Assembly (NCBI GenBank): GCA_937930535.1
Contig: CALGKJ010000036.1
Location: 1-34,240 of the forward strand
Source of the DNA: an uncultured Clostridia bacterium
GTDB lineage: Bacteria > Bacillota > Clostridia > Lutisporales > Lutisporaceae
Direction: 5' to 3'
Length of the DNA: 34,240 bases
Every line of letters starts with the position of its first letter. The stretch's first letter is position 1. Under the pieces are notes generated by a model. The model made no database searches. It had not been told where the DNA came from and was given only the letters and a program-made list of their open reading frames with translations. The position numbers and the translations under genes were made by a program. Shown piece after piece: positions 22,836 to 24,240 of this stretch.

Positions 22836-23690
22836 ATGTATGATGCAATAATAGTAGGCGGAGGTCCTGCTGCTTATTCCGCTTCTCTTAATCTAAAGAT
22901 AAGGAATAAAAGCCTTTTAGTTTTCGCAGGAAATGAAAAGACTACAGGCTTGATGAAAGCACCGCAGATTGACAATTATCTAGGAATGCCCGGGATCAGC
23001 GGTACTGAGCTTTTAGAAGCATATAAAAGACACGCAGAGGAAATGGAAGTCGAAATAAGGAAAGAAAAAATATATAACATACTGAATATGGGTGATTACT
23101 TTGCGTTAAATTCAGGCAGCGAATTTTATGAAGCTAGAAGTATAATAATTGCTGCTGGTCATGCAAAGTTTAAATACTTTGAAGGAGAGAGAGAGTATCT
23201 TGGGCGCGGCGTAGGCTACTGTGCCACCTGTGATGGGCCTCTATATAGAAACAAGTCGGCAGCCATAATCTCTGAGAACGAAGAAGGTGAGGAGGAAGCA
23301 AACTATCTTTCAGAAATCTGCTCTCAGGTTTACTATATACCTACGTATAACCATAAGACTAAGCTTAGAGAAGGCATTAAGATGATAGAGGAAAAGGTTT
23401 TGGGCATATATGGAAACGAAGTAAAGGCTGACACTTTAAAACTCTCTGACAGCCAGTTAAATGTTGATGTTATATTTATTATAAGAAATGTACTTCCTGT
23501 AAATCAGTTAATAGAAGGCTTGGAGCTGGAGGATGGCTCAATAAGGGTAGATAGAAGCATGGCAACTAATATACCAGGCATATTTGCATGCGGTGATTGT
23601 ACTGGAAAGCCCTACCAGATAGCAAAGGCTGTAGGTGAGGGTAATGTTGCGGCTTTGAGTGCAGTAAAGTATTTAGATACGGTTATATAA
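22836..23690 (+). CDS. Thioredoxin-reductase-like flavoprotein lacking NADPH-binding motifs
   Basis: A 284-residue FAD protein of the thioredoxin reductase fold, shorter than the usual 305-320. FAD sites are intact: GGGPAAYSAS at 8-17 and IFACGDCTGKPYQIAKAVGEG near the C-terminus. The redox centre CATCDG (C129, C132) is present. The NADPH domain has lost both signatures: GGGxxA is replaced by SENEEGEEEA (about 146-155), and HRRxxxR by PTYNHKTKL. This is the pattern of ferredoxin-dependent (FFTR) and deeply rooted (DTR) thioredoxin reductases of clostridia and cyanobacteria, so the electron donor is probably reduced ferredoxin. Its partner may be the DUF1858 selenoprotein 37 bases downstream. 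Confidence 0.85.
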   Translation: MYDAIIVGGGPAAYSASLNLKIRNKSLLVFAGNEKTTGLMKAPQIDNYLGMPGISGTELLEAYKRHAEEMEVEIRKEKIYNILNMGDYFALNSGSEFYEARSIIIAAGHAKFKYFEGEREYLGRGVGYCATCDGPLYRNKSAAIISENEEGEEEANYLSEICSQVYYIPTYNHKTKLREGIKMIEEKVLGIYGNEVKADTLKLSDSQLNVDVIFIIRNVLPVNQLIEGLELEDGSIRVDRSMATNIPGIFACGDCTGKPYQIAKAVGEGNVAALSAVKYLDTVI

Positions 23691-23727
23691 TATAAATATG
23701 GTGATACTATAAAGAGGGGTGATATTA

Positions 23728-23919
23728 ATGATTGATAAAAATATGGTTATAGATGACATACTATACAAAAATCCTGAGCTGGAAAAGGTATTTAAAGAAA
23801 ACGGTATTAAGTGCTTTGGATGAGGCGGAGCTCTATACATGACTGTAGAGCAGGCTGCTCTCAGATATAGAATAAATGCAGATGAACTTGTTGAAGAATT
23901 AAATCAGGAAATAGACTAA
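23728..23919 (+). CDS. DUF1858 protein with in-frame TGA (probable selenocysteine)
   Basis: A 63-residue protein if TGA 23821-23823 (codon 32) is read as selenocysteine. Before it: MIDKNMVIDDILYKNPELEK, then ENGIKCFG. After it: GGALYMTVEQAALRYRIN, then ADELVEELNQEID and a TAA stop. This matches DUF1858 end to end, including the opening strand, the Cys-x-Gly-Cys centre and the LxxLN tail, with Sec in place of the second Cys (C29-F-G-U32). AGAGGGG precedes the ATG. A SECIS-like hairpin follows the TGA. The gene ends the five-gene run directly after the flavoprotein. Alternatives are a recent Cys-to-stop mutation (TGC or TGT to TGA) or a sequencing error. Intact frame and codon use on both sides argue against decay. 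Confidence 0.8.
23824..23851 (+). promoter_or_regulatory. Candidate bacterial SECIS element
   Basis: Immediately 3' of the TGA, GCTC (23830-23833) pairs with GAGC (23848-23851) and TACA (23836-23839) with TGTA (23844-23847), leaving a TA bulge and the loop TGAC. The loop starts 17 bases after the TGA. This layout (lower stem, bulged U, upper stem, short loop with an early G) parallels the E. coli fdhF element bound by SelB. An alternative register gives an uninterrupted 8-bp stem with a 6-base loop. Confidence 0.65.
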
Positions 23920-23940: not shown

Positions 23941-23961
23941 GACCGGTGAAATTCACCGGTC
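23941..23961 (+). terminator. GC-rich terminator-like hairpin after DUF1858 gene
   Basis: GACCGGTG (23941-23948) pairs perfectly with CACCGGTC (23954-23961) around a 5-base loop, then CTTTACATTT. The U-tract is broken, but the stem is strong and marks the end of the five-gene run. Confidence 0.7.
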
Positions 23962-23975
23962 TTTACATTTATATA

Positions 23976-24240
23976 TCTTAAACATATGCGTTAACTTAAG
24001 CCAAGCTATTCCAATATGCTGTAAATATAACTTTTCGGAAGTTGTTTACTCCACGAAGCCTAGCCCGAGAGGCAGCACAGTAATTTATATGAAATACCTC
24101 AATATAATAAGCATCATATAATGTTAGTTTTTTCATATTCTTAAGGTGCTGCTTTTGTAAACAACTGTAGAAAAATTATATTTACAGCCAGAGATTTGTA
24201 AAATTAGAGCTTAAGTTAACTCATATGATCTGGTATAAGA
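23976..24240. ncRNA. Long interrupted hairpin, candidate structured RNA of unknown type
   Basis: No gene is supported between 23920 and 24325. Instead a nested series of stems folds into one long hairpin. TCTTA 23976-23980 pairs with 24236-24240. CATATG 23983-23988 pairs with 24222-24227. GTTAACTTAAGC 23990-24001 pairs with 24209-24220. GCTGTAAATATAA 24018-24030 pairs with 24176-24188. TTTTC 24032-24036 pairs with 24170-24174. AGTTGTTTAC 24040-24049 pairs with 24157-24166. GCAGCAC 24072-24078 pairs with 24146-24152. ATATGAAA 24087-24094 pairs with 24131-24138. The internal loops are asymmetric, and a GC-rich side hairpin (GCCTAGCCCGAGAGGC) sits on the left arm. I recognise no 6S, SRP, tmRNA or riboswitch core. 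A degenerate miniature transposon is the alternative. Confidence 0.55.

Follow-up and report, generated by a model that had tools for sequence, protein, structure and literature searches.

The window, by which we mean the whole stretch of 34,240 nucleotides analyzed here from an uncultured clostridial genome of the Lutisporaceae, contains a short gene with a single in-frame TGA codon, preceded by a gene for a flavin-dependent reductase. The features of this locus, all on the forward strand, are as follows, with the basis of each assignment in brackets.

22836-23690, forward: flavin thioredoxin reductase, probably of the ferredoxin-dependent type, with a CATC active site and missing NADPH motifs (motifs, structure matches)
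23713-23719, forward: ribosome-binding site AGAGGGG, 8 nt 5' of the ATG (sequence)
23728-23919, forward: predicted selenocysteine (Sec)-DUF1858 gene, ATG to TAA, 63 residues including Sec32 (translation, profile matches, ortholog alignment)
23821-23823, forward: in-frame TGA, predicted selenocysteine U32, second residue of a C29-x-x-U32 center (TGA in 18/18 distinct orthologues, TGT/TGC in close homologues)
23847-23861, forward: predicted SECIS apical hairpin AGAGCA-GGC-TGCTCT, 6-bp stem and 3-nt loop starting GG (covariation, synonymous shuffles, loss in Cys homologues)
23941-23961, forward: intrinsic-terminator-like hairpin 3' of the Sec gene, GACCGGTGA-AAT-TCACCGGTC, with a T-rich tail (sequence)

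A MITE-like element of ~250 bp with inverted terminal sequences (23983-24229) separates the Sec gene from the radical SAM gene that follows it, and ~10 further near-full copies with 92-97% identity occur in the genome.

With TGA read as U, the gene translates to MIDKNMVIDDILYKNPELEKVFKENGIKCFGUGGALYMTVEQAALRYRINADELVEELNQEID. Profile searches, scored with C substituted for U, gave whole-length matches to PF08984 (DUF1858; E value of 3.3e-14, 53.1 bits against a cutoff of 32.2) and to TIGR03980 (E value of 1.8e-16, 59.9 bits against a curated cutoff of 44.95), which bears out the first-pass annotation of a full-length DUF1858 gene with one in-frame TGA at the second redox cysteine (C29-F-G-U32) and a proper TAA stop ending at 23919. 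The CxxC redox pair of DUF1858/TIGR03980 is recognizable, with C29 invariant and position 32 occupied by TGA in all orthologues and by Cys in close homologues. An AlphaFold model with Cys replacing Sec is helical (pLDDT of 93.4), with residue 32 opening helix 32-37, and the top Foldseek matches are the DUF1858 structures 2k5e, 2k53, and 2fi0, followed by the YtfE domain. The window protein thus shares its full-length sequence and fold with the TIGR03980 hybrid-cluster-protein-associated redox disulfide domain represented by these three structures, but they are uncharacterized proteins without reported Sec, whereas the window protein has it. We know of no function for DUF1858.

The host's bacterial family also has among its members MAGs labeled Lutispora sp. 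(L080) and Gracilibacteraceae (L076), and the host is presumably a clostridial anaerobe of the Lutispora group. Among the 22 genomes sampled from this family, an orthologue was found in 18, always with TGA at the same codon. The CFGUGGA subfamily, again with TGA, occurs also in families f22 (six genomes) and f48, and the window's subfamily was found in other classes of the phylum; searches of viral and plasmid collections found no relatives. Across the 18 distinct sequences, dN/dS after the TGA is 0.15 in frame versus 0.9 and 2.6 in the other two frames, showing that purifying selection acts on the frame 3' of the TGA and that this frame, as the first-pass annotation had proposed, is conserved in relatives and not decayed. 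Standard gene finders stop at the TGA, and an ordinary stop would leave a 31-residue peptide, or a nonsense-mutated pseudogene with a relic 3' half; however, this reading is scarcely credible given the recurrence of TGA in 18 distinct orthologues and the selection on the 3' half, and a protein cut off at the TGA would be missing half of the DUF1858 fold. Because of the same two observations, we do not regard TGA32 as a chance occurrence, and the gene almost certainly encodes a selenoprotein with Sec read from this codon.

The SECIS-like hairpin reported by the first-pass annotation was supported by covariation, and its position could be given more precisely, at a site inside the coding sequence of the Sec-DUF1858 gene. 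The arms of the conserved stem lie at 23847-23852 and 23856-23861 around a GGC loop, the stem beginning 23 nt and the loop 29 nt 3' of the TGA. In an ungapped alignment of 30 sequences anchored at the TGA, a 7-bp stem occupies columns 26-42, with a GGC loop (GGT in one sequence). RNAalifold finds the stem unprompted, with compensatory changes in 5/6 pairs; for the stem as defined here, 95.2% of cells are paired and 5/7 pairs show double changes. Covariation in the stem is 0.404, compared with 0.158 in shuffled alignments (0/500 shuffles reach the observed value), and pairing collapses to 30-44% in every slid register. Synonymous diversity drops to 0.25 for codons within the hairpin, against 0.65-0.75 for those adjacent to it.

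We also compared pairing with that in 2,000 sets of sequences in which the protein was held fixed and codons were redrawn. Observed pairing exceeded the shuffled expectation in group B, which comprises the window's orthologues (6.3 of 7 pairs versus 4.5), in group C, a paralogous group treated below (6.9 versus 4.0), and in f22/f48 (6.1 versus 3.6), and in each case 0/2000 sets reached the observed value. The window sequence alone gives a P value of 0.035, and the weight of the shuffle test therefore rests on the multisequence comparison. Between 41 Sec and 61 Cys sequences, pairing falls from 6.1 to 3.4 of 7 pairs (P = 1.6e-14), a value that ignores relatedness and comes from a fixed register mixing groups whose SECIS may sit elsewhere; groups A and D have the TGA and lack the stem in the window's register.

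Folding of a single sequence gives a different picture. The lowest-energy fold of the isolated 48-mer from the window is another hairpin (-19.5 kcal/mol; constraining the conserved stem to form gives -12.6 kcal/mol), the 5' arm of which would presumably be covered by a ribosome positioned at the UGA. The conserved stem emerges only from sequence comparison, and the minimum-energy fold is a poor guide to the SECIS. Rfam returned no match anywhere in the window, and the SECIS is therefore not a curated match. The hairpin does have the form given for bacterial SECIS elements in PMC1088965, lying directly downstream with a small apical loop that contains G. Given the double-sided compensatory changes, the excess of pairing over synonymous shuffles, and the loss of pairing in Cys-encoding homologues, we assign 23847-23861 as the predicted SECIS element of this gene.

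The host assembly (4.69 Mb in 252 contigs) encodes the complete selenocysteine machinery, the absence of which had been proposed as grounds for abandoning the Sec reading. Contig C96 carries a tRNA-Sec gene whose anticodon is UCA, and selD, selA, and selB form a consecutive cluster on contig C136, with matches of 633 bits for selA and 390 bits for selB. The host selD (L129:7282-8202, G000:C136) is itself a TGA-containing selenoprotein gene, with the TGA near the N terminus (U33 in the translation).

Homologues exchange Sec and Cys at codon 32, in line with the alternation of TGA, TGC, and TGT that had been suggested as a check. In paralogue group A, proteins that are otherwise nearly identical have TGA (L063) or TGC (L036 and L057) at the Sec codon. 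Within the window's CxG[U/C]GGAL subfamily, one genome (G537) has both a TGA copy (L215) and two TGT copies (L201 and L216), with L215 and L201 being 78% identical, and TGA occurs in two genomes of family f145 (G504 and G468). Within the host's bacterial family, the CFGUGGA form was observed only with Sec and never with Cys. The residue inserted at a UGA cannot be proven from sequence alone, and the codon might be translated, by readthrough or recoding, as some other residue such as Trp or Cys, with no selenium involved; yet tRNA-Sec, SelA, SelB, and SelD are all in the genome, homologues have Cys at this position, and the covarying hairpin sits where a SECIS is expected and is lost in Cys homologues, so that such recoding is very improbable. 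For selenocysteine insertion, SelB carrying Sec-tRNA-Sec would bind the SECIS inside the coding sequence, and the ribosome would insert Sec at UGA32.

The first-pass annotation knew of no description of DUF1858 as a selenoprotein family, which is incorrect: two compilations (PMC9312934, Biomolecules 2022; PMC13188914, AEM 2026) tabulate DUF1858 as a CxxU selenoprotein family, with WP_012065717.1 as the example. The tabulated family has the same Pfam domain as the window gene and the same replacement of the second Cys by Sec, giving CxxU. These tables give one example without SECIS, context, or function, and our comparison is with the table entry only. The main texts of PMC2398784 and PMC5029168, the sources cited for the entry, do not name DUF1858. 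The window gene is a well-supported addition to the already catalogued DUF1858 selenoproteins.

The gene upstream ends 37 nt 5' of the Sec-DUF1858 gene and encodes a thioredoxin reductase with a CxxC (CATC) but without the NADPH motifs GxGxxA and HRRxxxR. The structures closest to it are 6gnc, 6gna, and 6gnd (E values of 1e-81 to 1e-84), which we take to be structures of ferredoxin-dependent flavin thioredoxin reductase (FFTR), and the next thioredoxin reductase matches at 4e-41. The combination of a CxxC with missing NAD(P)H motifs is that by which FFTRs are recognized in PMC10880999. In the trxA1-trxB1 operon of Clostridium difficile described there, an FFTR that is alike in this respect is encoded beside a thioredoxin, whereas in the window the Sec-DUF1858 gene stands there instead, as a possible partner of the reductase.

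With a single exception, every orthologous locus has the reductase directly upstream, and the order CAAX-type protease, reductase, Sec-DUF1858, SCIFF radical SAM maturase, and phosphate propanoyltransferase is kept across much of the bacterial family, although gene order can persist by descent among members of a single bacterial family without any functional tie. Three genomes (G001, G007, and G017; loci L193, L195, and L198) keep the reductase with the Sec gene absent from its slot, the radical SAM gene coming after the reductase in G007 and G017, while in G006 and family f22 the Sec gene is present and a reductase of the upstream type is not. We therefore rejected an obligate pairing of the two genes; the three losses from the slot offer a natural comparison. 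In G088, a gene for a CoA-disulfide-reductase-like flavoprotein is directly 3' of the Sec gene.

We hypothesize that C29 would pair with Sec32, the residue that opens a helix, in a selenenylsulfide-type redox couple, and that the protein would act as a diffusible selenol carrier or reductant, taking electrons from a flavin disulfide reductase and delivering them to disulfides, polysulfides, persulfides, or metals as substrates. In this scheme, the electrons would plausibly come from the upstream-encoded ferredoxin-dependent flavin thioredoxin reductase. On balance we favor a redox carrier as the function of the Sec-DUF1858 protein, and reduction by the neighboring enzyme is a tentative proposal, somewhat less likely than not. 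Since a reductase is usually upstream, the pairing is not obligate, and a different flavoprotein adjoins the gene in G088, our best guess for the role is a small selenol carrier serving flavin disulfide reductases.

The protein could instead be a selenoprotein that handles Fe-S clusters or metals in the manner of the N-terminal DUF542 domain of ScdA/YtfE, as might be suggested by its weak ScdA_N match, its match to the ScdA/YtfE family, and the location, in ~5 genomes, of group C paralogues 5' of genes for Rrf2 and cysteine desulfurase. We consider this unlikely, though deserving of some weight, as a flavin disulfide reductase adjoins the window orthologues in most loci, no Fe-S assembly gene was seen adjoining them, and a CxxU center where a helix begins is a usual mark of thiol redox proteins.

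Group C is represented in the host genome by a second Sec-DUF1858 paralogue (L014:874-1071, G000:C26), which has ~15 relatives (L090 and L109-L124). Its 14 distinct sequences all have TGA, in the motif C-G-U-G-G (CxU), with Ser, Arg, or another residue at the position of the first family Cys, and they have their own compensated hairpins (TTCGGCA/TGCCGAA and TTCAACA/TGTTGAA). No Cys version of group C was seen among 391 genomes of the class, and the CxU motif is absent from the DUF1858 rows of PMC9312934 and PMC13188914. The predicted model of the group C form is poor around the CxU motif. At L111:2434-4060 and at ~4 other group C loci, genes for an Rrf2-type regulator and for a cysteine desulfurase lie downstream of the CxU gene. 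Each group C Sec gene that was inspected has a conserved gene of ~250 residues directly 5' of it (L014:121-861 and 13 other loci); this upstream gene had no match in Pfam or NCBIfam, and a candidate assignment as a spore-coat-type (DUF3794) protein was withdrawn for that reason. In two other DUF1858 groups, GMHCLS[C/U]PGATGE and GMGCVG[C/U]PSAQ (L046, L050, L054, L056, L062, L063, L071, and L089), TGA and Cys codons alternate within the host's bacterial family, and the SECIS lies outside the register of the window gene.

It is possible, if rather doubtful, that these genomes maintain a dedicated set of Sec-DUF1858 carriers, in which the Sec-only CFGUGGA form, genomically paired with a ferredoxin-type thioredoxin reductase, and the Sec-only C-G-U form without the first Cys escape searches based on Cys homologues and may constitute a ferredoxin-fed, thioredoxin-like selenium relay. 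The CxU group suggests that catalogues relying on Cys homologues miss members of the family. The locus is a clean example of a selenoprotein gene that was hidden and is now backed by statistical tests. Its predicted SECIS was located from covarying positions in sequences from across Firmicutes, and exchange of Sec for Cys goes together with disappearance of the SECIS hairpin. The conserved neighboring reductase, together with Sec/Cys paralogue pairs in one genome, makes the function of DUF1858 testable.
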